Part shown: piece by piece, positions 1 to 23,720 of the stretch
How positions within the stretch are numbered: position 1 is the stretch's first letter
Layout of the letters: each line of letters opens with the position of its first letter
IMG/VR virus record: IMGVR_UViG_3300030106_004333
Location: 1 to 25,157 of that record
Source of the DNA: a virus
Strand: one strand, 5' to 3'
DNA: 25,157 nt
The notes under the pieces: model-generated
Databases searched by the model: none
What the model was told of the DNA's origin: nothing
The model's input: the letters and a program-made list of their open reading frames with translations, nothing else
Translations under genes and position numbers: made by a program

Positions 1-2082
1 TATTTGATACAAACCATGTTCTATAGAAGCATGAACCGTAGAAGTTGAATCAAATGAAAACCCTTTTAGATAACCATAAGTAGGAGCCATACCTTCAGAA
101 CCAAGAGTGTCTTGCACAGAAGGAGTGTAATACGTTTGATCTACTCCGTTTTCATCTGCAGTTACACCAAAAACATTATTAAAAAAAGGTTGGGTCGTAC
201 TATCTCCCTGGGCTATTCGTGCCTTAAAAAGCTTTGTATAAGCAGGAGCTTTTATTTCGTTATCTATTGCATTATAACTCAGCACAGGTAGTATTACATA
301 CTGACTAGTTAAAGAATCAAAAACAATATTAAAAGGAATGTAGTATTTATTAGGATTATTATCTATATATCGTGCGTCAATTAAGTTTGCTCTCCCCGCT
401 GTGTCAAAACCACCTGATATTAAAACAAATAGGTCCTGACCGAGGCTTGGTGCATAAGTAGATAATATTTTACTAGTTACTAAACTTGTATCTTGAGGTG
501 TTATGTTTTTGTTAGTAGTATAGTTATAGAGCATATATCCTGTAGGTCCTTGAAAAAATGATCCGTTTTCAAATCCAGGAAAATCATATACCTGATTAAG
601 CGGGAGTGCAAAGTCCGAGAATTGAGTTCCATTAACACTGTTTACATCATCAATAAAATTCTGCATCATGTTTTGCCAGTTATGCCCAGCAAAGTCATTA
701 GTTGCATCTCGAAGCAAAGAAAAATGTTGATCTACTCCTCCTATAGGATTTATAGGATGTCTATGAAGACCTGGGCCTAAATACTCATTAGTATTAAATA
801 GATCAGAACCAAAACATATCCCTCTAACATCACCATAACCAGTGCCAATTGTACCACCAGGATAGTTCAAATTTGTTCCTAATATATTCATTGTATCGTG
901 ATTCCATACATTTCCTAAAGGAACATCAGGATTATTACAATCTAAAGCATTTACTACTGAACCGATCTCATTTTGATCACCAGAAGTTTCTATAGCTAAA
1001 TTATGTCTGTTTAAATCAAACAGTAGCATTTGAGCCTCACCTTTACTATAACTAAATACACTAACTATTGAATGATCCTGTATTATTGTATGCTGTGCAA
1101 ATAATTTTGGGCTAGAATACGAATTAGCATCAGTCATTATGTTCTCTGCTCCATTAGAAGGAGTATACGAAGATCCAGAGTTTCTAGAATATTTTACAAC
1201 AGACAAACCATCGGATGTCTGTACAAAAATATTATTACCTTGCCTATCTGCTACTTCAAACTCTGAAACACTATTTTTATAAAAAGATAATAATGGATTA
1301 CCACTTTGATCTGTCATTACAAATGACTCTGCACCAAAAGCAACAGGAGCCTGAGAACTACTAATCAATTTTGCAGTGTTATTTGCTATATAACTTATTG
1401 GATTGTAAAAATCATTTAAGTTTATATATGTATTCGTTGATGCACTAATATCTATTACCGCTCCAAAATAAGGTCTAGAAGAATTTTGAACTGATCTATT
1501 AGCATATACTCTAACAGGATCAGATGGTGGTGAAAATACTGCAGTCCCATCATTTTTTGTTGCGTATGGATTATAGTTTATTGCAGTATTATTTATAGGG
1601 CCGTAAACTACAGGAGCCTCAATTGATGGGGATCCATAACAAGAGTATACTAAACGTCTTATATGTCTTTGATTAATAAGACCATTACCTTGAATAACAC
1701 CTTCTTTAGTTACTGGTAAATTATATCTTACTATATAATTTTTATTTTTAAATGTGCTAGGCAGTTTAACTCCTAACTCTTCTAGTATTTTATATATAAC
1801 TTCAGATAGTTTTACGTCTTTTTTAAAACCTCTTATACTAATAGAACTTGAAGAAGAAGATTGTTTTACCTTTTTAAATTTTAACTCAAGACTTCCTTTA
1901 CATTTATATCTAGAAGAGTATATAGTATTAAAAAATCCTAAAACTTGATCAAAAGCTCTTTCAATTTCTCGTTTATTATTTGCGCTTGCTCCTACAACTT
2001 CTATCTCTAAAGATCTATGAGATCCTCTTTTAACATCAGAAATAGCATTTAATAAATCTGAATTATATATTACTGCGGCCAT
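1..2082 (-). CDS. Large virion (tail) structural protein, 3' end beyond window
   Basis: An uninterrupted minus-strand reading frame of 694 codons begins at ATG 2082-2080 and is still open at base 1, so the C-terminus is missing. I do not recognise the family. The first ~110 residues are charged, with a Ser run near residues 79-84. The rest is rich in Asn, Gly, Tyr, Thr and Ser, with short hydrophobic strands, as in beta-rich phage fibre or tail-surface proteins. No signal peptide, transmembrane segment or catalytic motif was seen. The gene starts 6 bp after the 511-residue fibre gene and is preceded by an A/T-rich leader (TTGAAATAATAAAAT before ATG), like its neighbours. Position at the distal end of the tail module and composition suggest a tail appendage or receptor-contacting protein. 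That role is inference; the reading frame itself is secure. Confidence 0.8.
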   Translation of the reverse strand, partial: MAAVIYNSDLLNAISDVKRGSHRSLEIEVVGASANNKREIERAFDQVLGFFNTIYSSRYKCKGSLELKFKKVKQSSSSSSISIRGFKKDVKLSEVIYKILEELGVKLPSTFKNKNYIVRYNLPVTKEGVIQGNGLINQRHIRRLVYSCYGSPSIEAPVVYGPINNTAINYNPYATKNDGTAVFSPPSDPVRVYANRSVQNSSRPYFGAVIDISASTNTYINLNDFYNPISYIANNTAKLISSSQAPVAFGAESFVMTDQSGNPLLSFYKNSVSEFEVADRQGNNIFVQTSDGLSVVKYSRNSGSSYTPSNGAENIMTDANSYSSPKLFAQHTIIQDHSIVSVFSYSKGEAQMLLFDLNRHNLAIETSGDQNEIGSVVNALDCNNPDVPLGNVWNHDTMNILGTNLNYPGGTIGTGYGDVRGICFGSDLFNTNEYLGPGLHRHPINPIGGVDQHFSLLRDATNDFAGHNWQNMMQNFIDDVNSVNGTQFSDFALPLNQVYDFPGFENGSFFQGPTGYMLYNYTTNKNITPQDTSLVTSKILSTYAPSLGQDLFVLISGGFDTAGRANLIDARYIDNNPNKYYIPFNIVFDSLTSQYVILPVLSYNAIDNEIKAPAYTKLFKARIAQGDSTTQPFFNNVFGVTADENGVDQTYYTPSVQDTLGSEGMAPTYGYLKGFSFDSTSTVHASIEHGLYQI

Positions 2083-4774: not shown

Positions 4775-7700
4775 TTATTTTGCAAAACTAAGAATTTTTC
4801 TTAGATTTGTTAGGATTTTTTCAAATTTTTTCGCATCAGGAACAAATGAATCTTTATCAAGATTATCAAAATTTTGTAAGAATAATTTACCTGTAGTTGG
4901 TGTAATGTAGTATCCGTTAGAGATATAAAGATTGGGATTATTATCATCTCGTGCTTCTAAACTTCCTTGTTCACCTTCAACGTAAGCTAAATGAGACAGA
5001 TGCAGTACTCCAAATCCTGCACTAAGTTCTGGAAGATTGTAACCGTTTTCACATTGATCTGAAGGAGTAAATACAGGTGCCATTGAAAAAGTGTCTATGT
5101 CAACAATCTCACTACTAGCATTTTCAACACACTGTCCCACCAAAGCCTGTCCTGCACTCCAGCCGCCTTCTATACATAAAGAAGAGTCGTTTATGTAATA
5201 ACAACCGTGCTCTATATTTTCTATACATATAAATTTAGGTCCAGCATTAACCCCTTCTTCTGGCATCATTTCTAATAATGCTTGAAAATGCCTCTGTATA
5301 TTATTTTCTGAATTTACATTAGGATTTATTGTACCAGATGGTGTTACAAACTCGTTAGCCAAAAGTATTTGCTCTATATTAGCTATACCATTACATACAA
5401 ATTCATCTGTGCTTGCACAAACTGGTATAGCAGTAGACTGAGGGCATTTACCACCATCGCATAAAGTGTACTCTCCTCCAAATAATCTAGGAATATTGTA
5501 AAGCAAGTTCTGTGAAAAGGGGATTGAAAAGTTGCTGTTTACTCCTGCTTGCGTGCTGTTTAACACACCAAAGTGACTATGTATAGTAGCCTCTTGAGCA
5601 AGATTATAAACTTTGTCTTCGCAATATTCTATGTGATCTCTAGCTGTATTAGTATTAAAATACTCTTCAGTTCTTAGATTAATAGACTCTCCAAATTCTT
5701 TTGCTACTAATAAATGGCCCATGCCTGATAGTATATTTGCCCGCATTAAAAGAATTTGATCAGGACTAAAAGCAGTTCTTACTTTTTCAGCTGCTGGGCT
5801 AGCGTGGCAGCAGGCGGAATCTGATTCACTGCTATTACTACGAGGAACAGTTCTATCTGTCGCATGAACTGTAAAAGCGCCAACATCGTCAGCCCTTAGA
5901 TAGTGTAATGGATCTAAACGGTACGACATAATATTACTAAGATTTCCAGGATTCATTACTCCCCATTTAGGAGACTCTTTACCTTGTAAAGTAAGACCTT
6001 TGAAATCTCGAAGATGCGACATAACACTCATATTATTCGGAACTGTTACTCCATTCCAAAGAAAACCATAACGCATTCCTTCATCATTCCAATTATTGCC
6101 GCTTGCCGCCATAGTGATTGCATAATGGTCAGTATTCATTTGAGTATGCAAATTCACTAAAAAAGGATTATAATAATCAGAGGATGGATTCTCACTTCCA
6201 AATGTAAATCTATGATCATAGAAAAATTGATGGGCTTCGTACGTTGCAGGAATATCTTGTGTAAAGTTACCTGCTAAATCTCTAGCAGGCTGAAAAGTTC
6301 CTTCCATAGTTACTGAGTCACCCACATACCCTAATGTATTTGCAGCTCTTCCATTTTCTTCAGATGCTGCTTGCCAATCAAATTTAAAATTAGCATACTG
6401 ATCTCCATAAGCAAATATACCTACGTATCCAACTCCTATAGGCAGTTGCATAAAATGTATAGGATCTGTAGATAATGTATCACCTTCAGAATATCCTCCA
6501 GGATAAGGTTTGTATCCAAATGGAGTATTATAAAAATAAAAATCGAATGCATGCGGAAATCCTACCAAACCAAATTTATGCCCTATACAAGTTACATGTG
6601 TCCAACCATGGCCAATGTCTTCTCTAGGCGTTTCAGATGTCATAGGATAATATATATCTGCGTCGCTATCGTACATATACTGTCCCATCTCTCTCCTTAG
6701 AGGAGCATCCTGTGCGTATCTATCATAAGCATTTGATACATAACTTAGACTTTTGTTACTTCCATAAGGCGTTGTGCTAGCACCAGAAGCTGGTTTAACA
6801 TATGGTTCAGCATTCCAATACCCATAAATGTCCACATCTACAGCTCCTTCATACCCATCAGCTAATAAATATCTTTTATAATCATTATTAGGAAAAGATG
6901 CCAAAGAGTCGTTAACATGCACACCAGTGGAATCCATATATATGTCAGTATTATTAAGAACAGTTGGCCAAGCTATAGAACCTCCCATACTTTGTACTAT
7001 TTCTTCTGGTAAACTTCTTGCAATAGTTCGTAATTTTTCTGCATCAGAATTTACAGGATAATTATCTGCGTCTATAAAAGCTTGTAATTGATTTGTATTA
7101 CCAGGACCAAAACCAGTTCTCTGTGCATCTATTGGTTTATATGTAACTGCTTGTCCATTAACATAATATTCTTGATATGCATATAAACAAGGACACAAAG
7201 GATTACCCTCATTATCAAACTCGTCATATAATTTAGTTACAGGCCAGTTTTCTGGAAAAGGTCTATTTTTAGGGTCTCTCCAATTTACATTAGCAAACCA
7301 AAAAGGATCAAATACATCAGAAGGCGTACCATCTTCATTAGGAACACAGAATGGAACTCTACTAGTAATAGCTGGACCTTTTCTGTTTGCAGGTATAGTT
7401 TCTTCTACAAATGTTATTGGGCTATTGTAAAGAACTTTTCTTACAGGCAGAACTCCAAAAGGAGTGCCAGGAGGTGTTAACGTAACATCGTTTTCTATTT
7501 CATAAGAATTTGCTGAATACGAAGTTGTACCTGGAGTTACTATTGCTATGTTTCCATTACTCATATTCTGTGCTACTGCGCAATTTCCATTTGTATCTTC
7601 AATTGCCATCGCATTACTTGGAGCACCAGTAGATATATCCTCACAAGTTGTAGATGACCACAAACAAACCTGTTCGTTACTGTCGTAAACATTGTCAAAC

Positions 7701-10069
7701 TGAGTGCCACCAAAAGCAGCTAAAGTAATAAGTCTGTAGCGTATTAGATCTGTTCTTGTAGGTAAAACCCAATCAGTATAATTTGTATATGCTAAATTAC
7801 TTGCTATTGTTTCTGCTTCAGATTTATTTAACCATTGCCCATTACTAAGTAGTGGAGAGTTATAAGAAAGATCTGGAAATACAGTTAAATACTTATCACT
7901 ACCTTCAGTAAATGCTCGTATAACAAATCCTCCCAACTCAGGATAATGTATATCATCATATGTAATCCCTTGAGTACTATAATTACCAAGAACGGTATGA
8001 AAGTCATCCCACGTAGGTAAAGAAGAAGTTGTTGTACTTCGACTTGCTGCTGGTGCAGTAGGAGTAGTTAAAATACCGTCTACTAAATCTGTAGTAGGAT
8101 TAACAACATAGACAGGTTTACCTCCTTGAGCCTCAGGTACGTTATTACCATTATCATCTAATAAAATATAACTGTCTCCCCATAAAGAATCTACACTAAT
8201 CGTCATTGCTAAATATTTATTTAAAATAATAAATGATTTAGCTTGGTCAGCTGCCGATGAGTTGCCGCGACCAGGGGCCTCTTGATCAGCTGCGCCTGGA
8301 ATTATCTCAGGCCAACTATGAGTAATAAAAAAGTCTTGATCTACATCTCCTGTATTAAAAATAATTTTTCTATTATAATTATTTGTTATGTCTTTAGGAA
8401 CTTTATCAAATAACATTTGAAGATATATTTTCTCATCATTTGATATATCTTTATAATCTTGCGTCTCCCCAAATCTATCCTCATATGTAAAAGGAGGTAT
8501 ATAGGTGTCAGCATTTTTAAACCAAGATTTTTTTGTATTTATAAAAGGTAATAAGGAATCTTTTGTAGACTTATAACCACTTTGTTGTGTATGCAATAAC
8601 CCTAAAGTGTGTCCAAGCTCATGAGCTAATACAGTAGCGACCCCTACAATACTCATGCTAGTGCTAGTACTATCTGCTGTATTCCACGGCACCTCTTTAG
8701 TACCGTTAGTAGCAGGATAGTTATTATACATATTAACTATATTATTAGCGTTTATGTATGAGAATTTATTAGGAGGAAATGGAAATTGAGCCTGAGCACC
8801 TCCCCTATTTCCAGAAAATAAAATATTAATAACAGGAAGTCTGTCTACAGTACTCACCATACCGCTTATTGATCCTAAAGTTGGGCTAAGAAATCCTGCA
8901 TTTGATGACGCTCTATCAAGACTCGATTGTCTAAGATTAATTGCAGAACCATTACTTCCCAAATAATAAGGATCTATCACATTATCATACACTGTTCCAT
9001 CTGCAAATTCTTTTCCTGAATCTGATAGATTCATAGTATGTCTAACAAATTCTCTATACCCTGCGTCTCCTGGCATAAGAGGGTCGGCACCTCCGTATTT
9101 ATCCGCACTGTATCTAAATATAGCCCCATAAGGTCCTGTAGTAAAATATTCATCAGAAGAAGTTCCTTCAGTAAGGTTAGCAATTGCGTGAGTACTAAAA
9201 TTAACTGTTGCATGCTGCTGGCATAAGTATTCCCCTGTAAAATTTTCTGCTTTGTATTTAGTTATATCAGTTACTATTTCTTGTTTGCTATGATTGTAAA
9301 GAATACCGCTGTTGTGGGTTGTTTGAAATGTATTAAGAACACCGCCTTCTGCTAAAGAACCTGTATAATCCTGTCCAAAACCCTGATCACCATACAGCTG
9401 GTCAGACATATATGCCTCTGGAAATATAGTATCAGGTCTAAAAGTAGAAGATCTTTCGTCTAGCCAACTACTATTCCAGTCAATAAAACCTTCTGCGTTT
9501 GTAGGATCAAGCGCTGCTTCTGTAACAGCGTCATTTTGTCCCATAGGTTTTAGACAAAAAGGCATTTGAAAAAGTGGATTTAAAAGTGATTTAGGTATTT
9601 TATGTATTAATTTAAATCTAATACCAGAATCTACACCGTGTCCAGCAGCATCTATAGCCCTAGGAATATTTTTAGTAATATTAGAAATCCCTGCATAAGC
9701 TGTATCACCATATAGATTTTCCCATGTACCTGCAAACATACTATTTACAACTTCTATCATTTCAGAAAAATCCTGATCACTGTATGCATCCCACCCATCT
9801 CTATCGGCCTGTCGCGTATGAATTATAATAGGAATATAAATCAACTCTTCATCTGTATATGTTGTAGTACGAGAATTACCAGATCTTGCTGCCCTTTCTT
9901 TTTGTTTATCCCTTTCTTTATTTATTTCTTTTTTGAATTTTTGAGGATAATCTCCCATACGAAGACTTTGAGCTTCTGACATATCAAAGTCACAGTAAAT
10001 CGAATTACCCTGCTCGTCAGTATCAAATAGTCTACCTTCTAAATTTATATTATCTTTTTCTGTTGACAT
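4775..10069 (-). CDS. Giant virion-module protein with pappalysin-like (M43) zinc metalloprotease motif and DUF1566/Lcl_C-like domain (1764 aa)
   Basis: Residues 483-493 read HELGHTLGLLH, the full metzincin zinc motif HExxHxxGxxH with catalytic Glu484. Upstream features fit the pappalysin/cytophagalysin (M43) family: a strand ending in His (IPIIIHT, 79-85) followed by a helix with VNSMF, and a strand like LPVINILFSG (411-420) about 60 residues before the zinc helix. Residues ~742-880 match the DUF1566/Lcl_C pattern: WVLPTRTDL (767-775), LWSSTT (803-808) and a closing VLPVRKV. A Met-turn candidate, NIMSYR, is at 1379-1384, followed by FSPDQILLMR (1434-1443), an arrangement typical of M43. It would lie ~890 residues after the zinc helix, far more than usual. 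The C-terminal ~350 residues contain clustered Cys. There is no signal peptide or membrane segment, which favours a virion component over host-type secretion. It sits 7 bp after a degenerate M43-like gene. Proteolysis of host surface protein or self-processing is inference. Confidence 0.8.
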   Translation of the reverse strand: MSTEKDNINLEGRLFDTDEQGNSIYCDFDMSEAQSLRMGDYPQKFKKEINKERDKQKERAARSGNSRTTTYTDEELIYIPIIIHTRQADRDGWDAYSDQDFSEMIEVVNSMFAGTWENLYGDTAYAGISNITKNIPRAIDAAGHGVDSGIRFKLIHKIPKSLLNPLFQMPFCLKPMGQNDAVTEAALDPTNAEGFIDWNSSWLDERSSTFRPDTIFPEAYMSDQLYGDQGFGQDYTGSLAEGGVLNTFQTTHNSGILYNHSKQEIVTDITKYKAENFTGEYLCQQHATVNFSTHAIANLTEGTSSDEYFTTGPYGAIFRYSADKYGGADPLMPGDAGYREFVRHTMNLSDSGKEFADGTVYDNVIDPYYLGSNGSAINLRQSSLDRASSNAGFLSPTLGSISGMVSTVDRLPVINILFSGNRGGAQAQFPFPPNKFSYINANNIVNMYNNYPATNGTKEVPWNTADSTSTSMSIVGVATVLAHELGHTLGLLHTQQSGYKSTKDSLLPFINTKKSWFKNADTYIPPFTYEDRFGETQDYKDISNDEKIYLQMLFDKVPKDITNNYNRKIIFNTGDVDQDFFITHSWPEIIPGAADQEAPGRGNSSAADQAKSFIILNKYLAMTISVDSLWGDSYILLDDNGNNVPEAQGGKPVYVVNPTTDLVDGILTTPTAPAASRSTTTSSLPTWDDFHTVLGNYSTQGITYDDIHYPELGGFVIRAFTEGSDKYLTVFPDLSYNSPLLSNGQWLNKSEAETIASNLAYTNYTDWVLPTRTDLIRYRLITLAAFGGTQFDNVYDSNEQVCLWSSTTCEDISTGAPSNAMAIEDTNGNCAVAQNMSNGNIAIVTPGTTSYSANSYEIENDVTLTPPGTPFGVLPVRKVLYNSPITFVEETIPANRKGPAITSRVPFCVPNEDGTPSDVFDPFWFANVNWRDPKNRPFPENWPVTKLYDEFDNEGNPLCPCLYAYQEYYVNGQAVTYKPIDAQRTGFGPGNTNQLQAFIDADNYPVNSDAEKLRTIARSLPEEIVQSMGGSIAWPTVLNNTDIYMDSTGVHVNDSLASFPNNDYKRYLLADGYEGAVDVDIYGYWNAEPYVKPASGASTTPYGSNKSLSYVSNAYDRYAQDAPLRREMGQYMYDSDADIYYPMTSETPREDIGHGWTHVTCIGHKFGLVGFPHAFDFYFYNTPFGYKPYPGGYSEGDTLSTDPIHFMQLPIGVGYVGIFAYGDQYANFKFDWQAASEENGRAANTLGYVGDSVTMEGTFQPARDLAGNFTQDIPATYEAHQFFYDHRFTFGSENPSSDYYNPFLVNLHTQMNTDHYAITMAASGNNWNDEGMRYGFLWNGVTVPNNMSVMSHLRDFKGLTLQGKESPKWGVMNPGNLSNIMSYRLDPLHYLRADDVGAFTVHATDRTVPRSNSSESDSACCHASPAAEKVRTAFSPDQILLMRANILSGMGHLLVAKEFGESINLRTEEYFNTNTARDHIEYCEDKVYNLAQEATIHSHFGVLNSTQAGVNSNFSIPFSQNLLYNIPRLFGGEYTLCDGGKCPQSTAIPVCASTDEFVCNGIANIEQILLANEFVTPSGTINPNVNSENNIQRHFQALLEMMPEEGVNAGPKFICIENIEHGCYYINDSSLCIEGGWSAGQALVGQCVENASSEIVDIDTFSMAPVFTPSDQCENGYNLPELSAGFGVLHLSHLAYVEGEQGSLEARDDNNPNLYISNGYYITPTTGKLFLQNFDNLDKDSFVPDAKKFEKILTNLRKILSFAK

Positions 10070-10076
10070 TAAAGTA

Positions 10077-11375
10077 TTATATATTAGTTATCCCTAAAAG
10101 GTTTTGTAAATAAAGTATTTGTCCTTGAAGTGTAATTTCTTCCTCTGTAAAATTAGTGCTACTAAAATCTACCTGACTTTGAAAAGAATTGATATGGTAT
10201 TGTATATCATTAGTACTTAAAATATTTCCAAACTCTTCACAGTCAATATCAAATACCACAGGCTCTATTACTACGTTTTGTGGTATAGTGTATATGCTTA
10301 AAAATGTCCATATAAAAGTAGCGCTTTCATAAGTATATGTGCAGTCAAACTGCGATCTAACTCTTCTTATTTGTTCCATAGTAGCAGTAATATTATCAGA
10401 AGGATAAAACCCCATAAAATTATCTAAAACTAATAAAGGAGAATCTATCATACAAGAAGCCTGAAAAGTTGCTGTAGAATCAAGACCTTCTGCTAAAGTA
10501 ATTTTATTATTGTCACTAACACACTCTCCTCCTCCAGAGCTGCCTCCTGATAATATGCAGTTATTTGAAGGACAACTGGTTGATAACAAAGAATCAAAAA
10601 TTAAACCTGAAGAAGAACTAGGCGCAGTAGGGCTATTAAATAAACCTAAACAATGTCCCATACCTCTATATACATCTGTTGTTTGTGATGGGAGAGTGTA
10701 AGCATGTGATAATACTTGATCTGAATATAAAGACTCCCCTTCAAACTCTTTAATAGACCACATAGAACAAACCAGTCCAAACTGTTTATTTTTAATCATA
10801 TGGAGTGCAGGATTAATAGAATATATAGGCATACTATAATCGCCAGTAGACTTTCTTACCCCATCAAAATCTAACCCCGCTATATCATGCACTAAAAAAA
10901 TATTAAAATGATCTATAAAAGAGTATGTAGACATTATACCATCTACTGTAGTTCCTGGAATATGAGTACCGTTTATATCTTGTTCAAGATAAGAAACTTT
11001 ATAAGTATTATCACTGTATGAATATTTTTGACCACTAGTTCTTGTTTCTTTATAACCACTTAAATCTTGCTCTAATATAGTAACATCAAAAACTATATTA
11101 AACAAACTCCAAAAATTATTTAATGCTGCCACAAAAGATTGCAAACTTTGTTGACTAGGTGAATACATTTTTTGGTTAGTGTCTTTATCTCTATAATAGC
11201 AAACATGAACTACAGTAGGTATTACCACAGCAACATCCAAATCATTTGCCAAAACACTACTATCTAAACTTAAATTGTATGCTTTTAATTGAAGTATATC
11301 GCTTGTATTATGCATTGCAGCTCTAAGTAAAAATTCAGAGCTATCCTGAGGTATGTTATATTGAGTTTCAGGCAT
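10077..11375 (-). CDS. Pappalysin-like (M43-fold) protein with degraded zinc site, putative pseudoprotease (432 aa)
   Basis: The layout follows M43 metalloproteases. There is a strand ending in VHV (VAVVIPTVVHVCYY, 48-61), a helix with AALNNFW (83-89) and the IVFDVTI strand (94-100). An FNIFLVHDIAG-like strand (157-167) is followed by a Gly-rich stretch. Then comes RGMGHCLGLFN (237-247) at the zinc-helix position, and NFMGFYPSD (319-327) followed by a helix with MEQIRRVR (333-340), resembling the family's Met-turn and following helix. Against HExxHxxGxxH, the first His, the Glu and the third His are replaced by Arg237, Gly238 and Asn247; only His241 and Gly244 remain, so zinc catalysis is not expected. 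The start overlaps the preceding gene by 8 bp and the end is 7 bp before the intact metzincin-motif gene. A structural or binding role in the tail is inferred. The family call is by pattern, without a database search. Confidence 0.65.
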   Translation of the reverse strand: MPETQYNIPQDSSEFLLRAAMHNTSDILQLKAYNLSLDSSVLANDLDVAVVIPTVVHVCYYRDKDTNQKMYSPSQQSLQSFVAALNNFWSLFNIVFDVTILEQDLSGYKETRTSGQKYSYSDNTYKVSYLEQDINGTHIPGTTVDGIMSTYSFIDHFNIFLVHDIAGLDFDGVRKSTGDYSMPIYSINPALHMIKNKQFGLVCSMWSIKEFEGESLYSDQVLSHAYTLPSQTTDVYRGMGHCLGLFNSPTAPSSSSGLIFDSLLSTSCPSNNCILSGGSSGGGECVSDNNKITLAEGLDSTATFQASCMIDSPLLVLDNFMGFYPSDNITATMEQIRRVRSQFDCTYTYESATFIWTFLSIYTIPQNVVIEPVVFDIDCEEFGNILSTNDIQYHINSFQSQVDFSSTNFTEEEITLQGQILYLQNLLGITNI

Positions 11376-12087: not shown

Positions 12088-13350
12088 TTAATCCCAGTCA
12101 GTGATTGTGTTAGCTGCACCTCCAAATAAATCAGTAACATCTTCGTTACCATTACCTGTTTTAGCTGCTAAAACAATTTGAGCTCGTCCTACACCTGATC
12201 CTGAAACTGCATATTTTGGATCTGATAGTTTAACATCTATAAACAAAGTGTTATAGTATAAACTAGCATCTGCAAATAATGCAACATCATCACCGTTATT
12301 AGGCATAACCCCGTGACGGTAAGGAGCACCAGCAGAACCAATAGAGAACCATTCCATTTCTGCAATTTGTCGTCCATGTCCTTCACCTGGATCTGGAGCC
12401 GTTGATGTAGCTACAGCAGTAGTAGAACCAAAACCATCAATAGTTACATCAAAAGTAATTTGAGCATCTTTGAAAAGACCTAGTTTCCATTCTTGTTCGA
12501 TACCTGTAATAGTGATACCCCAAGAACCTGCTGCTGCTTGAGCTGCAGTCATTTGACCACAAGTTTGAGTTGCTGCGTCAGCACCTTGGTAAGGCTGATC
12601 TAAATAAATATTAGCGCCGTCTACTGATTCAACTTTATAAAGAGGAACATTAGTGTTAGTAGCATGTCCAACTTTTACATACTCACCAGCAACTAATCCG
12701 TGGTTAGTAGCACTAGCAAGAGCGTAGTCAGAACCACTGTAGAAAGAAATTGTAGCAGGAGATCCACCTAATGCAGCAGAAGTACCTGAAGAATATCTTT
12801 GAACTAAAGCACTAGCTCGTTTCTTACCTGAAGTTTTACCATTAAACTTCTCTATAGCAGACATTTTTTGAACTAAGTTATCTACGATTTCTACTTCAGT
12901 TGCAGAAGCATCTGAAACATATTCAAAGAAATGTAAGTCTGATTGTTTAGAGAATAAATCTACATTGTTAGTAAAGTTTACTCGAACAGTGTATCGATTT
13001 GAGTTAATAGCTTCGATTGAACCTGCAGCACCTGTATAACCAAATCCTGTAACTTGTTCAGCTCTTGAAGCATCTAATGCAGCCTCAACTTTAATTATAT
13101 CATCATAATTAAAAACAGGAGACCATCGGTAACTACCGTCTGAATCTTTTTGTCCAATTTTAACAAGTGTGCCTGCAGCAATTGCATCAGTATAGTTACC
13201 TGTAGCACCTTTTTCAATTGCACCTGTTGTTGCGTTTGCAATAATAAGATCTCCTGCAGTTGCTTCTCCTATTGAACTAGTTTCAATAGCTGCACCACTA
13301 CCAGCATCTCTCTGTACAAACACGTGTAAAGAATTATCTGTTTTAAACAT
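12088..13350 (-). CDS. Major virion structural protein, candidate tail tube protein (420 aa)
   Basis: An Ala/Gly/Thr-rich, beta-strand-rich protein of the size and composition of an abundant structural subunit. The N-terminus (VFVQRDAGSGAAIETSS) is followed by repeated short strand-turn units. The C-terminal half contains WKLGLFKDAQITFDVT and an EMEWFSIGSAGAPYRHG segment, then a two-strand ending with YNTLFIDVKLSD. I loosely associate this aromatic-Gly-Tyr-Arg pattern with structural or tail tube-type proteins of Bacteroidota phages, but I cannot prove it. The coding sequence is less AT-biased than the downstream tail genes, as is the capsid gene. It is followed directly by a strong terminator, as expected for the last highly expressed gene of an operon. 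Alternative: another major tail or decoration protein. If it is a tube, a tape-measure protein should lie outside this window. Confidence 0.6.
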   Translation of the reverse strand: MFKTDNSLHVFVQRDAGSGAAIETSSIGEATAGDLIIANATTGAIEKGATGNYTDAIAAGTLVKIGQKDSDGSYRWSPVFNYDDIIKVEAALDASRAEQVTGFGYTGAAGSIEAINSNRYTVRVNFTNNVDLFSKQSDLHFFEYVSDASATEVEIVDNLVQKMSAIEKFNGKTSGKKRASALVQRYSSGTSAALGGSPATISFYSGSDYALASATNHGLVAGEYVKVGHATNTNVPLYKVESVDGANIYLDQPYQGADAATQTCGQMTAAQAAAGSWGITITGIEQEWKLGLFKDAQITFDVTIDGFGSTTAVATSTAPDPGEGHGRQIAEMEWFSIGSAGAPYRHGVMPNNGDDVALFADASLYYNTLFIDVKLSDPKYAVSGSGVGRAQIVLAAKTGNGNEDVTDLFGGAANTITDWD

Positions 13351-15509: not shown

Positions 15510-16952
15510 TTATACTGCAGATGAGTAAATCAATTCAGCACAAGACATTGGGTTTGCAATAAGCACACCTTGTTGAGCTTGAGCAAATAGTTGATAACCA
15601 TCTACTGCAGAAGCAGATCCTTTAGCAAAAGAAGTGTTAGGACCAAGTGGTGAAGTAGAACCAGCTACGTGCCACATTAATTCTTTACGTCCTTTAGGAT
15701 ATACTCTACGAATATTCTTCTCACCGCCTGAAGTACCCATGTTAAGGATAGTGTAACGGTAAGATTCAGTGAAACCACCTTTTGGGTGTGGTACACGGTT
15801 ACGTACTTCATCATCATACATTGGTAAGTGAACTAAAGTAAATCGGATACCTTGTGGCCCCATAAACTCTCTGTACTGACCTTGGAATGATAAGTTTTGT
15901 CCAGATCCACCAATTCTTTTAGAATCTAATGGTTGGAAACGAGCAGCGTGGTTTTCAAGAGCTCTATGGAATTGTACCATACCTCTTTCACCTGTAAACG
16001 CTACGAAGTGACGTTGATCTTCTGGAAGAATGTTAATTGATAAATTCAATAATACATCTTCTAAATAATCAATTGAGAAATCAGTGTAGTGGAACTTGTA
16101 AGACGGTGAGATTTGCTCACGTAATCCTGCACCTTCAATAATTGGAGAACCAGAATCACCCATCATAGAGTAAGTACCATTATTCTGTTTGTTAGACTTA
16201 GCAAAGAATAACATTCTTTCTTTTTCTTTCATCCACTGACACATAAACTCGTATTCAGCATATTGAGTCCAGATCTTAGTAGTCTTGTTAGACTTAGGAT
16301 CCATCATCTCAATAACTAAAGGACGTTGGTGCATGTTACCAGGAATAGTATAAGTCTTAGATAAGAAAGACATAGCATTACGCATTTTAAATGGAGAGTT
16401 GTAGCTCGTTTCACCATACGTTCTGTTTAATGTTCTTTCTTGTGGAGAGTACTCTTTACTTGCTTTAGATCCCACAGCTAATAATGAAGGAGCAATAAAG
16501 TCCTCTGGGTTACCAGACATCAATTGACATGGATAAACAAATGAAGTACCTGACATGTAAGGCTCACGCATTACACGAACAGCAGTTTCACCGTCATCTA
16601 AAACCAATTTATCAGTAACTGCAAAATACTTTTCAGCAAAAGTAATTAAAACTTCTGCACCATATCGACCTGGAGTTGCTCCAGAAGGTGCTGCTGTAAT
16701 AGTAATTGCACGCTCGTCGTCCCCTTTCAGGTACCACTCGTAATCATTATCATCTGGAAGTTCTTGCTCGCCTCCACCAATTGATAAAAAATAATCTAAA
16801 CCAGCATACTGGTTTAATCCAAAAACTCTACTAATGATGTTTGACACCAATGTAGGTTCTTGCGCAAATACGCTTCCTAGGTGGTTCTCAGTTGTTAAGC
16901 CAGACCAACTCTTAGGAGCATACATTTGTAATGAACTAATGTTGTTTGCCAT
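15510..16952 (-). CDS. Major capsid protein (480 aa)
   Basis: The protein forms the icosahedral shell. Its N-terminus has the pattern SVFAQEPTLVSNIISRVFG (27-45), which I associate with crAss-like and related Bacteroidota phage capsid proteins. The following Trp/Tyr/Gly-rich beta segments, the long central helix region (WTQYAEYEFMCQWMKEKERM, ~228-247) and the C-terminal beta strands fit an HK97-fold subunit in the ~490-residue class. It follows the acidic scaffold gene by 44 bp and precedes the head-module gene, the usual portal-scaffold-capsid order. The coding sequence is visibly less AT-skewed than the distal tail genes, fitting high expression. There is no Shine-Dalgarno motif; the leader is A/T-rich (TTAATTCAAA before ATG). 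No N-terminal propeptide or protease site can be told from sequence alone. Confidence 0.85.
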   Translation of the reverse strand: MANNISSLQMYAPKSWSGLTTENHLGSVFAQEPTLVSNIISRVFGLNQYAGLDYFLSIGGGEQELPDDNDYEWYLKGDDERAITITAAPSGATPGRYGAEVLITFAEKYFAVTDKLVLDDGETAVRVMREPYMSGTSFVYPCQLMSGNPEDFIAPSLLAVGSKASKEYSPQERTLNRTYGETSYNSPFKMRNAMSFLSKTYTIPGNMHQRPLVIEMMDPKSNKTTKIWTQYAEYEFMCQWMKEKERMLFFAKSNKQNNGTYSMMGDSGSPIIEGAGLREQISPSYKFHYTDFSIDYLEDVLLNLSINILPEDQRHFVAFTGERGMVQFHRALENHAARFQPLDSKRIGGSGQNLSFQGQYREFMGPQGIRFTLVHLPMYDDEVRNRVPHPKGGFTESYRYTILNMGTSGGEKNIRRVYPKGRKELMWHVAGSTSPLGPNTSFAKGSASAVDGYQLFAQAQQGVLIANPMSCAELIYSSAV

Positions 16953-18264: not shown

Positions 18265-18286
18265 TCTAATTTTGCAGATTAGATTT
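18262..18286 (-). terminator. AT-rich hairpin over the portal stop codon, possible weak terminator
   Basis: A perfect 9-bp inverted repeat AAATCTAAT / ATTAGATTT (arms 18286-18278 and 18270-18262) with a 7-nt loop includes the portal's last codons and TAG stop. It is followed by TTTAGC on the minus strand, a poor T-tract, so a weak terminator or 3'-end stabiliser is as likely as full termination. Confidence 0.45.
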
Positions 18287-20662
18287 ATTGTTTGCTTTTT
18301 TTACTTTTTCTCTTTCTATAGATTCTTTAGCTTGATTTTGACGTCTAGTCTCTCCAAGTTTTTCTCGCTCTAAATTTAGTTTAGCTATATCTATATCGTC
18401 TCTTATGTTATTATTATTAGCATCTCTATCTTGAGCTTTGCTTTCTGCATTAATCAATGCTACTTCTACTTTCGTTTGGTTGTCTTGCGAATTTCTGGCA
18501 TCTTCTCTATTTTCTTTTTCGATCTCGAACTGCATTTGCATCTGCTGCTGTTGTTGTTGCATTTGCATTTGTTGTTGTTGCAGCATTTCATTTCGCTGTT
18601 GAGTTTCTGCCTCTGAACGTTTAAGGTTGTGACGTAAGTCTGCAAGAGAGCTTGCATTATAAATTTGTACAACATCTGACAATGACATTTTATCATTTTG
18701 TAAAGCTGCATGAGTAAGTTGTTTTAGAGCTTCGATAGCCATGTTATCTTTAGCTGAGTTAGAAACAAATAATCCGTATTCAGAATTTTTAAATTCATCA
18801 CCGTTTAATTTAAAGAATACATTTGCTAAATCATCTGTCATGTATTGGAATCGTTTAGACTTACCTTTGTAAACATCTTTAGATACGTTTAACAAACATT
18901 CCATAACTCTAACCTTTGTTTGGTTATGCACTTCATACCACTTTTCAGTGATGTAAGAAGATTGTTGTACAGATCTTTCTGTGTTACCAACTAACTCAGA
19001 AGTAGAGATAGATCCCATTCTTTGAGGAGTTACACCTGCTAGATTGTGGATCTTTTGCTCTGTAAATTCTAATAGCTGTATATGTTGTTGAATATGATTA
19101 CCAGTTTCCATATCTATCACTTTGTTCTGTGTAGATATGTTACCTGCTAATTTACCAGTGGATTGTCCTTTTTTACCTTCGTTAAACGAGTCAACAAAAC
19201 CAAACTTCATTGACTGTGCATAGTACATCCACTTTTCTATTTCCCATCCATCAGGAACTAGTGACAAATCTATAAGTGCAATCTTACCTTGGTTAGATGC
19301 AATAGCTAATTCTAACCTGTACCACAGTGTTATGTACATATACACCCATGGAACTAATCTGTCCATTAAAGAAACAGATTGCGCATTGTTTGCATTATAT
19401 ATTGTTCCAACATATCCAGAGCTGCACATAGATACATTATCCATGTGTCTAAATTGTTGTGGTCTTACTCTAATATTAATGTATGTGTTTTCTCCGATCT
19501 TTGTTCCTTCCCAATACTCGTTAATCCACATCCATTCTATAGACTCTCCTATAGATTCATTTATCTTATAGGTTTCTCCTACCATCATCTCTTGAGGCAT
19601 ACCTAACTCATCATAGTAAGTAAGTCTACCTATTTTTCTCATAGACTTCCACACCACTTTAGTTACACGTATGTTTCCATCTTGATCGTAGTAGTTAAAT
19701 AAACTAGAATTACCGTCATTACCTTCACGGTTTTCTATATATAACTTTTCTTGTGCAGGATAATTAAGTATACTCTGACTATCTATAGATCCTCTGTTAC
19801 CTTGCTCTTTTTCTAACTTGTCTATTTGAGCAGGAGTTAGATCTTCGTAAAAATTGTCTATAACAGTATTGATAGACATAAATGTATCTTCTACAATTAT
19901 GTCTGCGTTATCTACGTAATCTTCATTGTGCGGCAGTAAACAATAAAATTCTAATGGGTTAACTCTTCTTACAGTAGGCTCATTAGATATTTCTTCTACA
20001 CAGTATATTTCTTCACCTGCAATTAAAGCATCCTCCCATCCCTTAGCAAATTTAACTTTTAAATTCTGATCTCTTTCAAGAAAATTTAAGAGCTTGTTTG
20101 CAATAGATTCATTCATATCTTGAAAATCGTAATCAAAATACTTTTGAATCCTTTTTAATTCTTCTGGGATATTTTGTTGAGCGGCGTTAAGTAATTGTTG
20201 CTGCTCTTCAGGGTTTTGTGGTTCAGCCTGCTGCGACATGAATTGTTGCATAGACTGTTGCATTAAACCTTGAAAATAAGAAAGCACTCTATCTTTCTTC
20301 TCTTCTTCTTTAGAGGTTATAGCCTCTTCGTTTATAGATCTGACTATAACAGTGAATGCTCTTTTAGCTTCTTCACCGAACAGTAGATTAAATATAGGAG
20401 ATACTACATCATAGTATTGTAGAGTAGCAGGAAGTTCTGCAACCCCTCCTAATCCTAGAGGATCAGTTACATATTCTAGATCTTTCTTGTCGAACTTACC
20501 GTTATACAAATCGTAGTTCCGCTTTTTCTTAAAGCGAGAACTACGTCGTGTATGATCGTAAATACCTACTAAGCCTAATCCAGCTTCTATGCAATCTTCT
20601 CCCCACTTCTGAGTCTTTTTCCTTCGACTCAGTTTTTGTCTGGGAAAATCTAAATGAGGCAT
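18266..20662 (-). CDS. Portal protein (798 aa)
   Basis: The dodecameric portal forms the DNA entry and exit vertex. The length (~800) and N-terminal pattern fit the large portals of crAss-like and related phages: a basic start, NYDLYNGKFD (49-58), LPATLQYYDVVSPI (77-90) and NLLFGEEAKR (92-101). The middle contains mixed alpha/beta wing and stem segments, with EIYCVEEISNEPTVRRVNP (~218-236) typical of portal wings. The C-terminal ~115 residues are a glutamine-rich and charged helical tail (~688-710 almost all Gln/Met), a likely coiled-coil barrel or disordered extension. It follows the two small decoration-like genes by 9 bp. The stop TAG lies inside a 9-bp hairpin. The family call is by pattern; supported by order relative to TerL, scaffold and capsid. 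Confidence 0.85.
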   Translation of the reverse strand: MPHLDFPRQKLSRRKKTQKWGEDCIEAGLGLVGIYDHTRRSSRFKKKRNYDLYNGKFDKKDLEYVTDPLGLGGVAELPATLQYYDVVSPIFNLLFGEEAKRAFTVIVRSINEEAITSKEEEKKDRVLSYFQGLMQQSMQQFMSQQAEPQNPEEQQQLLNAAQQNIPEELKRIQKYFDYDFQDMNESIANKLLNFLERDQNLKVKFAKGWEDALIAGEEIYCVEEISNEPTVRRVNPLEFYCLLPHNEDYVDNADIIVEDTFMSINTVIDNFYEDLTPAQIDKLEKEQGNRGSIDSQSILNYPAQEKLYIENREGNDGNSSLFNYYDQDGNIRVTKVVWKSMRKIGRLTYYDELGMPQEMMVGETYKINESIGESIEWMWINEYWEGTKIGENTYINIRVRPQQFRHMDNVSMCSSGYVGTIYNANNAQSVSLMDRLVPWVYMYITLWYRLELAIASNQGKIALIDLSLVPDGWEIEKWMYYAQSMKFGFVDSFNEGKKGQSTGKLAGNISTQNKVIDMETGNHIQQHIQLLEFTEQKIHNLAGVTPQRMGSISTSELVGNTERSVQQSSYITEKWYEVHNQTKVRVMECLLNVSKDVYKGKSKRFQYMTDDLANVFFKLNGDEFKNSEYGLFVSNSAKDNMAIEALKQLTHAALQNDKMSLSDVVQIYNASSLADLRHNLKRSEAETQQRNEMLQQQQMQMQQQQQQMQMQFEIEKENREDARNSQDNQTKVEVALINAESKAQDRDANNNNIRDDIDIAKLNLEREKLGETRRQNQAKESIEREKVKKANNKSNLQN

Positions 20663-21595: not shown

Positions 21596-21608
21596 TTTAT
21601 AGCTAAAA
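21596..21608 (-). repeat. 13-bp operon-boundary repeat, copy 1
   Basis: Minus-strand TTTTAGCTATAAA spanning the TerL stop codon, identical to 18264-18252 at the portal stop codon. Both copies sit 66-67 bp upstream of an identical TATTTTTG promoter box. Confidence 0.7.
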
Positions 21609-23720
21609 AGGTCTTTTTCTTTTTGAGAATAAAGATTTATCCCAAAACCCTTGATCATATATAGTTGTTACTTTCTTTTCTTTTTCTACTTTAATTTTTT
21701 TAACTTCTTCTAAGTGATAAACAATCATCATAAATGCCATTACCCTATCGAAGTTTCCTACCTCATTGTAGGATATAAGCTCTTTTAATAAAGGTACACT
21801 TCTTATTTTGTGTAGATTTAAAAGGCCTTCATTTTCATATGGTTCTAACAACCACATTTTAATAAGTTCTTCTCCGTACATCTTTAAAGGTTTTGACATG
21901 TGCATACCTTTTTGTCTCTGTACTTTACTGTGTTGGATAACATCTTTGATTATTTCAGGCTGATCTGCAAGTAAGTATGTTTCATGTTTATGTTCTAAAT
22001 ACTGAAACAATCCTTTACGTTCGTTCTCATATAAACACTTGGCATTATAAAACTTAAGTAATCTTCTTACATTTTCGTAATACTGGTTAGCTGTCTCAGG
22101 CCTCCCTGTATATTCTGCTACAATACGATTAGTTAGTTTATTTATTACAAAAGTAGATCCTAAAGAAGATGTTGTAGATTCATCATGATCATAAGGGTCA
22201 GTACCTGCAAGATACATGCCATATGGTATATCCCCGTCTTTATCTTCGTAAGGCATTTCATATATAACAACACACCCTGATATATCATCACTACCTCTAA
22301 CAGGAAATTCATAGATTGGCTTGAGTTTTGCATTAGGTTTCCATTCGACCTTTTTAGTTTCTGTATTTACAAACAACTCTCCTATGTAGTCATGATTGCG
22401 TTCTCTGTTAGATGCTTCTAGTTCAGCAAGTCTAGTTAAAAGATCTGCAACTGGAAACAAATTACCTGTGCGCGTAAGAAATACTTCAGATGGTACAAGC
22501 GGTCTATTTTGTAATTCTGCATCTAGAGCACTTCTAGCATTTTTACCTTCTTTTAGTTTTTCTCTAAACTTATCTAAGTACTCTCTTGCAGGCTGCTCTT
22601 GCGTATTACCATTCTTGTCTTTAAACTGATTTAGTCCTCTGTAAGCAGGTACAAAATAAGATATTTTACCTTTATCTTCCCATTCATCGTTAAACGAAAT
22701 CATATCATAAACATCAGGGTTATAGAACATATCTCGTGCATCTACAGTACCTCCACCTTCCATGTCACCACCTGTACCAAGATACATGCAGCTTCCAAAT
22801 TTATATGCACCGTTTTTCATACATTCTACAGATGCTTCGTGCGACGCTTTAAGATTACTAAACATTCCAATCTCTTCAAGCACCATTACTGCAGGTCTTG
22901 TACCGTTGGCAGCAAATGGATTATCTTTAAATGTGCGGTGTTTAATTTTAGATTTAGAACCCATAACTTTCCAGGTTCCACCAAGTTTCTTTTTATACTC
23001 TGCAATAATTTCTTTACCAGAGTACCAGCTTCCTCCATATTGTTTAGAAAAAGGAGATGGGTAAAACTTATCTCCAATCTCTATACCGCCTGGTAAATTA
23101 TCTAAACCAAATTGCGTTTTCTTAAGTATGTCTCCAGAATATTTAGCATCACCTGCTCCCACTACAATCTCAGTTGATGGAGGGTTTTTTATAAGATCAG
23201 GATCGTATGCTTTCATTCCATCAAACACAAACTCATGTCCTGCTACACCTCCTGCAACAGAGTATGATTTACCAAATCCACGGCTACCCATCATCATAAA
23301 GTTTTTAGCTTCATTTTCAAACAATGGTCTGCCTAAATTCTTTTTATGTGTTCTACGCATATATTCTGCAGCAGGTACATAATGATCTTGTCCTATAAAC
23401 TCTCTATTACAGGTAAACTCTTTATCATCTTCAAATCCTGAAAATCCACGAGCTTCTACCCAATTGTAAAAAAACTCCCATTCAAGATCTCTAAGAAATG
23501 GTTTACCTGGAGTTTTAGTTTTAGAGTGTGCAGTTTTATTAAGAAGTATTGTCCAGAAGTTTACATAAAAATAAAGATTACCTGGCATCCATATGCCACC
23601 TACCCAATAACCTTCAATACATCGTTTTTTCTCTTCCCGCCAAAACAATAAGTATTCTTCGCTGGCAGGATGAAACTGAGGTATTTCGTTAAGTAAAAAA
23701 GCTTCTTTGTTAATAATCAT
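21603..23720 (-). CDS. terL: Terminase large subunit (705 aa)
   Basis: The DNA-packaging motor: an ATPase that drives DNA through the portal, plus a nuclease that cuts the concatemer. Walker A is GSRGFGKS (145-152, Lys151). Walker B is VMVLEE (278-283, with acidic 282-283), followed by a coupling-type GTGGDMEGG segment near 315-323. The C-terminal RNase H-like nuclease shows Asp508 in LAGTDPYDHD, Glu565/Glu567 in LYENER, and Asp658 in GNFDRVMAF, the expected metal-binding acids. A ~130-residue N-terminal extension precedes the ATPase (EYMRRTHKKNLGRPLF just before it). A length near 700 fits the crAss-like/Bacteroidota phage type. The start ATG 23720 overlaps the stop of the upstream 173-residue gene (ATGA), which suggests translational coupling. 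Confidence 0.95.
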   Translation of the reverse strand: MIINKEAFLLNEIPQFHPASEEYLLFWREEKKRCIEGYWVGGIWMPGNLYFYVNFWTILLNKTAHSKTKTPGKPFLRDLEWEFFYNWVEARGFSGFEDDKEFTCNREFIGQDHYVPAAEYMRRTHKKNLGRPLFENEAKNFMMMGSRGFGKSYSVAGGVAGHEFVFDGMKAYDPDLIKNPPSTEIVVGAGDAKYSGDILKKTQFGLDNLPGGIEIGDKFYPSPFSKQYGGSWYSGKEIIAEYKKKLGGTWKVMGSKSKIKHRTFKDNPFAANGTRPAVMVLEEIGMFSNLKASHEASVECMKNGAYKFGSCMYLGTGGDMEGGGTVDARDMFYNPDVYDMISFNDEWEDKGKISYFVPAYRGLNQFKDKNGNTQEQPAREYLDKFREKLKEGKNARSALDAELQNRPLVPSEVFLTRTGNLFPVADLLTRLAELEASNRERNHDYIGELFVNTETKKVEWKPNAKLKPIYEFPVRGSDDISGCVVIYEMPYEDKDGDIPYGMYLAGTDPYDHDESTTSSLGSTFVINKLTNRIVAEYTGRPETANQYYENVRRLLKFYNAKCLYENERKGLFQYLEHKHETYLLADQPEIIKDVIQHSKVQRQKGMHMSKPLKMYGEELIKMWLLEPYENEGLLNLHKIRSVPLLKELISYNEVGNFDRVMAFMMIVYHLEEVKKIKVEKEKKVTTIYDQGFWDKSLFSKRKRPF

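Follow-up and report, generated by a model that had tools for sequence, protein, structure and literature searches.

Gene content of the window and the position of P0001

The window analysed here is the whole fragment of 25,157 bases from an IMG/VR record, assigned to a crAss-like phage using Pfam and PHROGs; its features are collected in Table 1. The crAss-type portal, major capsid protein (MCP), and auxiliary capsid protein genes are all present alongside the gene of P0001, which provides the Crassvirales setting. Those Crassvirales whose hosts have been identified infect Bacteroidetes (PMC10136315). From the terminase to the auxiliary capsid gene, the gene order is largely that of the phi14:2 and crAss001 phages, and beyond the auxiliary capsid gene clade-specific genes are located. 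The gene of P0001 follows those of the capsid protein, the ring-protein homologue, and the auxiliary capsid protein, in the slot which in phi14:2 belongs to the virion 'pectate lyase' gene. The virion genes at the corresponding position of phi14:2 were identified by mass spectrometry, and the 'pectate lyase', annotated as a virion part by MS/MS, is among them.

The identity of P0001 with the muzzle protein was ruled out. The phi14:2 protein that is syntenic with the crAss001 muzzle has homologues which are separate genes, located elsewhere, in five of the seven related records. Given the phi14:2 slot of mass-spectrometry virion genes and the separate muzzle gene, we infer that P0001 is a tail-module protein, namely a tail appendage that would cut a host surface protein.

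Table 1. Genes and protein features of the window; residue numbers of the features within P0001 refer to that protein
Feature	Position	Strand	Basis
Terminase-like gene	21603-23720		Match to phi14:2 terminase
Portal	18266-20662		PHROG portal, E 1e-146
crAss-type MCP	15510-16952		Pfam Crass_capsid, E 2e-131
Auxiliary capsid protein	12088-13350		Pfam crAss_AuxCP, E 1.5e-11
Zinc-dead M43-like paralogue, 432 aa, contiguous fold	10077..11375	-	Family profile, Pfam, zinc-position residues
P0001, split M43-like metzincin protein, 1764 aa	4775..10069	-	Intact ORF; predicted tail-module protein
Cys26, candidate cysteine-switch residue	9992..9994	-	Cys in residues 11-30 of 15/15 catalytic homologues
First strand and backing helix, residues 75-115 (LIYIPIIIHT...FSEMIEVVNSMFAG)	9725..9847	-	hhalign to M43-like paralogue
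Zinc helix HELGHTLGLLH, residues 483-493	8591..8623	-	H483, E484, H487, H493 in 15/15
Insertion between zinc helix and Met-turn, 885 residues (494-1378)	5936..8590	-	H1-to-Met gaps in 15 homologues
Constant part 1, residues 525-636 (PPFxY ... EKxY ... W630)	8162..8497	-	Conserved columns 525-529, 549, 630, 633
Optional Lcl_C/DUF1566-like module, residues 746-841	7547..7834	-	Pfam PF07603, E 7.6e-4
Constant part 2, residues 900-970 (PFC...FWxxNxNW...CPCLYxxQ)	7160..7372	-	C959, P960, C961, Q966 in 15/15
Constant part 3, residues 1186-1305 (GYxG ... YNP)	6155..6514	-	Conserved columns 1215, 1217, 1291, 1300-1302
Met-turn NIMSYR, residues 1379-1384	5918..5935	-	M1381 12/15, Y1383 15/15
C-terminal helix of the catalytic fold, residues 1434-1450 (FSPDQILLMRANILSGM)	5720..5770	-	hhalign to paralogue FTxxQIxRxRAN
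C-terminal helix/tail, residues 1745-1764	4778..4837	-	hhalign, E 5e-4, to C-terminus of the upstream family
P0002, downstream gene	1-2082	-	

A direct search for relatives of P0001 revealed none in 50,697 phage records and none in IMG/VR with short words, and a tblastn search of 50,697 phage records with P0001 and two relatives gave only a short repeat match in Synechococcus phage S-CAM3. The relatives were reached via the capsid protein, which led to 66 related IMG/VR loci. There is no PHROGs family for P0001, and two of 20 members of its family match phrog_4245 (function unknown). The homologues found, 14 full-length proteins and some partial ones, are all located on contigs of related phages. 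The proteins in the syntenic slot of the relatives are 1127-1945 aa in length, with an HExxHxxxxxH motif near residue 350-440. The alignment of 15 sequences used below contains P0001 and the 14 full-length homologues (L114 was added to the first thirteen), and L132 is a sixteenth family member outside it.

When nine contigs were compared, the level of identity to the window's proteins was 83-92% for the capsid protein and only 25-38% for P0001. Proteins that contact the host typically diverge fast in this way while the capsid protein hardly changes. A diversity-generating retroelement was considered as the source of the P0001 divergence, and no reverse transcriptase was detected in seven related records, some of them incomplete.

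Additionally, the family of P0002 may begin with a zinc-dead matrixin-like domain (IGxxLGL...SPMNP...IYG). Pfam M10 was found in two of its 12 members (best E 0.005), and a profile search of the PDB with this family gave no matrixin match. If this reading is true, three metzincin-like genes are located close together. A repeat of the type GCTDPxAxNYNPxAxxDDGSC, found at about residues 158-182 of P0002 and about 1264-1288 of the P0001 homologue L124, is common to several genes of these phages and to the unrelated cyanophage virion protein of S-CAM3.

A probable divided catalytic fold

The initial annotation reported a perfect HExxHxxGxxH motif at residues 483-493 of P0001, and this motif is indeed present; Pfam metzincin models match the protein at the same helix. 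Its three histidines and glutamate are invariant in all 15 aligned proteins. Past the zinc helix, methionine occurs in more than five of the 15 sequences at one column only, that of M1381 (12 of 15), and two residues further Y1383 is a tyrosine in every sequence. This single mostly-Met column agrees with the earlier view of NIMSYR as the sole convincing Met-turn. A closer Met-turn, sought at residues 500-600, was not found, as the alignment has no conserved methionine within residues 494-1370. The distance between H483 and M1381 is 898 residues, and across all 15 proteins the first zinc histidine and the Met column are 524-956 residues apart. In metzincins, the Met-turn is usually about 40-60 residues past the zinc motif (PMC3034196). 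The motifs are as described for the originally annotated span 5826-8621, but the span itself stops short of the FSPDQILLMR helix (residues 1434-1443, window about 5741-5770). At the other end of the fold, Y78, P80, and N109 are conserved in residues 75-115.

Several variants of the motifs can be noted. The L099, L100, and L104 proteins have T, S, or L in place of the Met-turn methionine and keep the zinc residues and the tyrosine. In one related phage, the split protease is encoded twice in tandem (L105a and L105b; L105:2745-6449 and 6452-10267, minus strand), and in both copies the motif glycine is replaced (HELGHTFALKH and HELGHSFTLSH). A truncated relative (L016:7459-8640, plus strand) contains HEYMHGAISGNH, with one extra residue between the second and third histidines compared with the standard motif.

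The gene just upstream of P0001 offers a natural control, a zinc-dead and unsplit paralogue. Its zinc helix is degenerate (YRGMGHCLGLFN, about 10635-10667), and it has a Met-turn-like NFMGF. Its family (n = 12) comprises the window gene and the genes at the syntenic position of 11 related contigs. The family profile, compared with PDB sequences, places mirolysin first (E 1.7e-5), followed by pappalysin-2 (0.013) and pappalysin-1 (E 0.013-0.07 for these next matches). Pfam M43 was found in two of the 12 members, with one relative above the curated cut-off. An intact HExxH is present in none of the 12, and the pseudo-zinc helix and the Met-turn-like motif are 83-106 residues apart. The zinc motif of the relatives ranges from HSxxHxxGxxH in L098, where all three histidines are kept and only the catalytic glutamate is lost, replaced by serine, to complete loss.

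A comparison of the P0001 family with the paralogue using hhalign gave three separate collinear blocks: the first strand and helix (E 1.9e-4), the zinc helix (E 8.9e-4), and the Met-turn with the C-terminal helix (E 2.5e-4). The block of the C-terminal helix was also obtained with another alignment (E 3.3e-5). These E-values come from single comparisons with modest probabilities of 23-72%, and it is the collinear order that gives the matches weight. A short C-terminal helix common to both families suggests that the split protein and the upstream gene are tandem paralogues.

The AlphaFold2 model of P0001 (residues 285-1484, 17 sequences) has a pLDDT of 36.5 and no VIA match; it is uninformative, and nothing was concluded from it. 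Structural support was therefore taken from a model of the complete L120 protein, the shortest relative (1127 aa), whose mean pLDDT is also low (38.5). The blocks above about 55 pLDDT include the first strand and backing helix, the zinc helix, and the C-terminal helix. The best VIA-align match of this low-pLDDT model is mirolysin (Z 10.6, rmsd 4.1 Å over 205 of 270 residues), followed by ulilysin (Z 9.5); PAPP-A2 also aligns (Z 8.9). The best seven matches are mirolysin or ulilysin (Z 9.2-10.6), and the 50 matches listed are exclusively metzincin-fold chains. Models without a clear match typically score Z 7-8, and the value of 10.6 exceeds this level. Residues 95..1009 of the model fall on residues 58..327 of the mirolysin chain, a range given by the outermost aligned residues only; since it reaches from the N-terminal region to the final helix, the alignment covers the chain on either side of the insertion. 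With Foldseek by itself, the L120 model had no match in the PDB and BFVD at E ≤ 0.001, and the Met-turn segment, used as the sole query against the PDB, returned no M43 chain.

The family-wide gap of 524-956 residues, the collinear paralogue blocks, and the fold match of L120 all support the first of the two possibilities raised in the initial annotation, and P0001 is very probably a single catalytic fold interrupted by a huge insertion. It appears to contain a functional zinc protease domain, with about 900 residues of chain between the two halves. The catalytic set is conserved though hundreds of residues part its halves; thus, the metzincin fold can apparently accommodate, or make use of, a very large insertion next to its active site.

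Insertion, possible latency, and family assignment

Three parts of the insertion are constant in the family. For constant part 2, which contains the CPC block, no credible relative was found in the PDB or Pfam, and for constant part 3 none was found in the PDB. A scan of genome contigs with the CPC block, a method that relies on short conserved words and may overlook distant sequences, revealed no cellular relative. The DUF1566-like module noted earlier in the gap is real, being found at residues 746-841 and in three relatives (L124, E 3e-7; L013, 7e-5; L128, 8e-4), but it is optional and movable and cannot be equated with the insertion. The match to Lcl_C/DUF1566 (PF07603) is recurrent and weak, with a score of 20.2 bits for P0001 and 31.1 for the best relative against a curated cut-off of 34.9. 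In L128 (L128:7001-12835, residues 1287-1325), the module is located behind the Met-turn column, unlike in the other members, and it seems to move within this gene family. Since it is optional and lies behind the Met-turn in L128, it can be regarded as a movable decoration and not as the cause of the split.

All 15 catalytic homologues have a cysteine at a position between residues 11 and 30, whereas in ten of the 12 zinc-dead paralogues the first 45 residues contain no cysteine. L098, one of the two exceptions, is the paralogue with all three zinc-binding histidines. A prosegment cysteine is a known M43 feature, and the latency of mirolysin is maintained through Cys23 of its N-terminal segment (PMC8259862). 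Given this distribution and the mirolysin precedent, it is reasonable to suppose that the N-terminal cysteine of the P0001 family acts as a cysteine switch.

As for the family assignment, the HExxHxxGxxH motif of the metzincin clan is present in P0001, and so is Y1383, in the position of the M43 'tyrosine switch', the tyrosine two residues past the Met-turn methionine (PMC11674741). For the Met-turn that metzincins have past the zinc helix, packed beneath the zinc, the conserved MxY is the candidate in P0001. The M43 character of a fold closest to ulilysin and mirolysin was observed with the low-pLDDT L120 model. The clan spacing of about 40-60 residues is replaced by 898; in cytophagalysin CPL1, H231 and M284 are 53 residues apart (PMC11674741). 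P0001 scores 17.0 bits with Pfam PF05572 (M43), below the cut-off of 23, and the relative L114 reaches 25.4. M43 enzymes have two conserved disulfides in the catalytic domain, with the first cysteine of CPL1 six residues past the last zinc histidine (PMC11674741); these disulfides are absent from P0001, which has no cysteine near residue 499. Because of the Pfam score, the absent disulfides, and the unusual spacing, P0001 is, strictly tested, a metzincin that resembles M43 without qualifying as a formal member.

Proposed mode of action and comparison with known systems

We consider it probable that P0001 is, taken as a whole, a phage-encoded, insertion-split M43-like metzincin protease, kept latent by Cys26, cutting a host protein at adsorption, and paired with its paralogue. 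One catalytic domain would be built from two chain segments, of which residues about 75-500 would supply the N-terminal sheet, the backing helix, and the zinc helix, and residues about 1370-1450 the Met-turn, the tyrosine switch, and the C-terminal helix. The insertion of about 885 residues would leave the domain at the loop between the zinc helix and the Met-turn, which has 40-60 residues in ordinary pappalysins. It would carry the constant phage-specific region, with the Lcl_C-type module added in some phages, and would bind a host surface structure beside the catalytic cleft. Cys26 may keep the zinc latent until a trigger at adsorption, after which the enzyme would cleave a host surface protein, as the polysaccharide-degrading tailspikes of other phages cut the capsule. 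The zinc-dead paralogue encoded just upstream probably docks or assembles with P0001. The family, its conserved catalytic set and split, the contiguous paralogue, and the fold match of the L120 model are what the analysis observed; proteolysis, zinc binding, latency, surface binding, virion place, and paralogue pairing are all predicted properties. The split layout kept in all 15 proteins suggests that the phage carries a latent protein-cutting enzyme at the host contact point; the proposal that P0001 cleaves proteins as an active tail enzyme is more tentative. In a more elaborate version, which we regard as doubtful, the active site would close only when the ends of a receptor-binding insertion of about 500-950 residues meet, so that receptor binding would arm the cysteine-switched tail metzincin, paired with its zinc-dead paralogue and replacing a polysaccharide-degrading tailspike by a protein-cutting one.

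The split fold could instead function in binding, as a scaffold comparable to the zinc-dead neighbour, and P0001 would then be an adhesin and no enzyme. The absence of an intact HExxH from the entire upstream family, the loss of the Met-turn methionine in three homologues, and the Lcl_C modules of the insertion, named after a bacterial adhesin, are consistent with this. However, three histidines, a glutamate, and a tyrosine have remained invariant in 15 strongly diverged homologues, and the neighbouring paralogue demonstrates how fast zinc residues are lost once unneeded; a pure adhesin is unlikely. It is somewhat less likely still that the metzincin is active inside the infected or lysing cell instead of on the tail, for example in lysis or phage protein processing. 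Listeria is known to have a phage-derived, secreted metzincin with an effect on the cell envelope (PMC8235301), but the slot of P0001 is that of the phi14:2 tail-fibre/tailspike virion genes, its sequence diverges fast beside conserved capsid genes, and its modular insertion bears an adhesin-type domain. Finally, it is improbable that the zinc helix and NIMSYR belong to different domains, with the true Met-turn near residues 500-600 or missing and the likeness of NIMSYR due to chance. In favour of this, the P0001 model is of low confidence, three relatives have lost the methionine, and the Met-turn segment by itself finds no M43 chain in the PDB; against it, no conserved methionine exists within 494-1370, Y1383 is invariant, the Met-turn and C-terminal helix align with their counterparts in the unsplit paralogue, and the L120 model superposes on mirolysin over both halves.

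The reading of P0001 as an insertion-split tail metzincin can be compared with several known systems. In the literature searched, which included few subscription papers, nothing comparable was found among phage tail proteins of the pappalysin, M43, metzincin, or zincin type. Mirolysin, ulilysin, and cytophagalysin (lower pappalysins, MEROPS M43) share with P0001 the HExxHxxGxxH zinc helix, the Met-turn with a tyrosine two residues on, the FTxxQ/FSPxQ-type C-terminal helix, and the N-terminal cysteine, and the first two are the best fold matches of the L120 model. Unlike them, P0001 is phage-encoded, has no Ig-like tail, shows neither of the usual two disulfides, and separates the first zinc histidine from the methionine by 898 residues (53 in CPL1). 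Pappalysin-1 and -2 (PAPP-A and PAPP-A2) also contain the M43 catalytic fold inside a very large multidomain chain; in contrast to P0001, they are eukaryotic and secreted. Their zinc helix and Met-turn are close to each other. Crassvirales tail-fibre and tailspike proteins, such as the phi14:2 'pectate lyase', resemble P0001 in their slot past the auxiliary capsid gene and as large virion-associated proteins, whereas their domains are glycosyl-hydrolase, phosphatase, or CHAP (PMC10136315). A review of the Crassvirales describes tail enzymes that act on polysaccharides and mentions no protease (PMC10136315). P0001, if it is a tail protease, would be a protein-cutting counterpart of the phage depolymerases.
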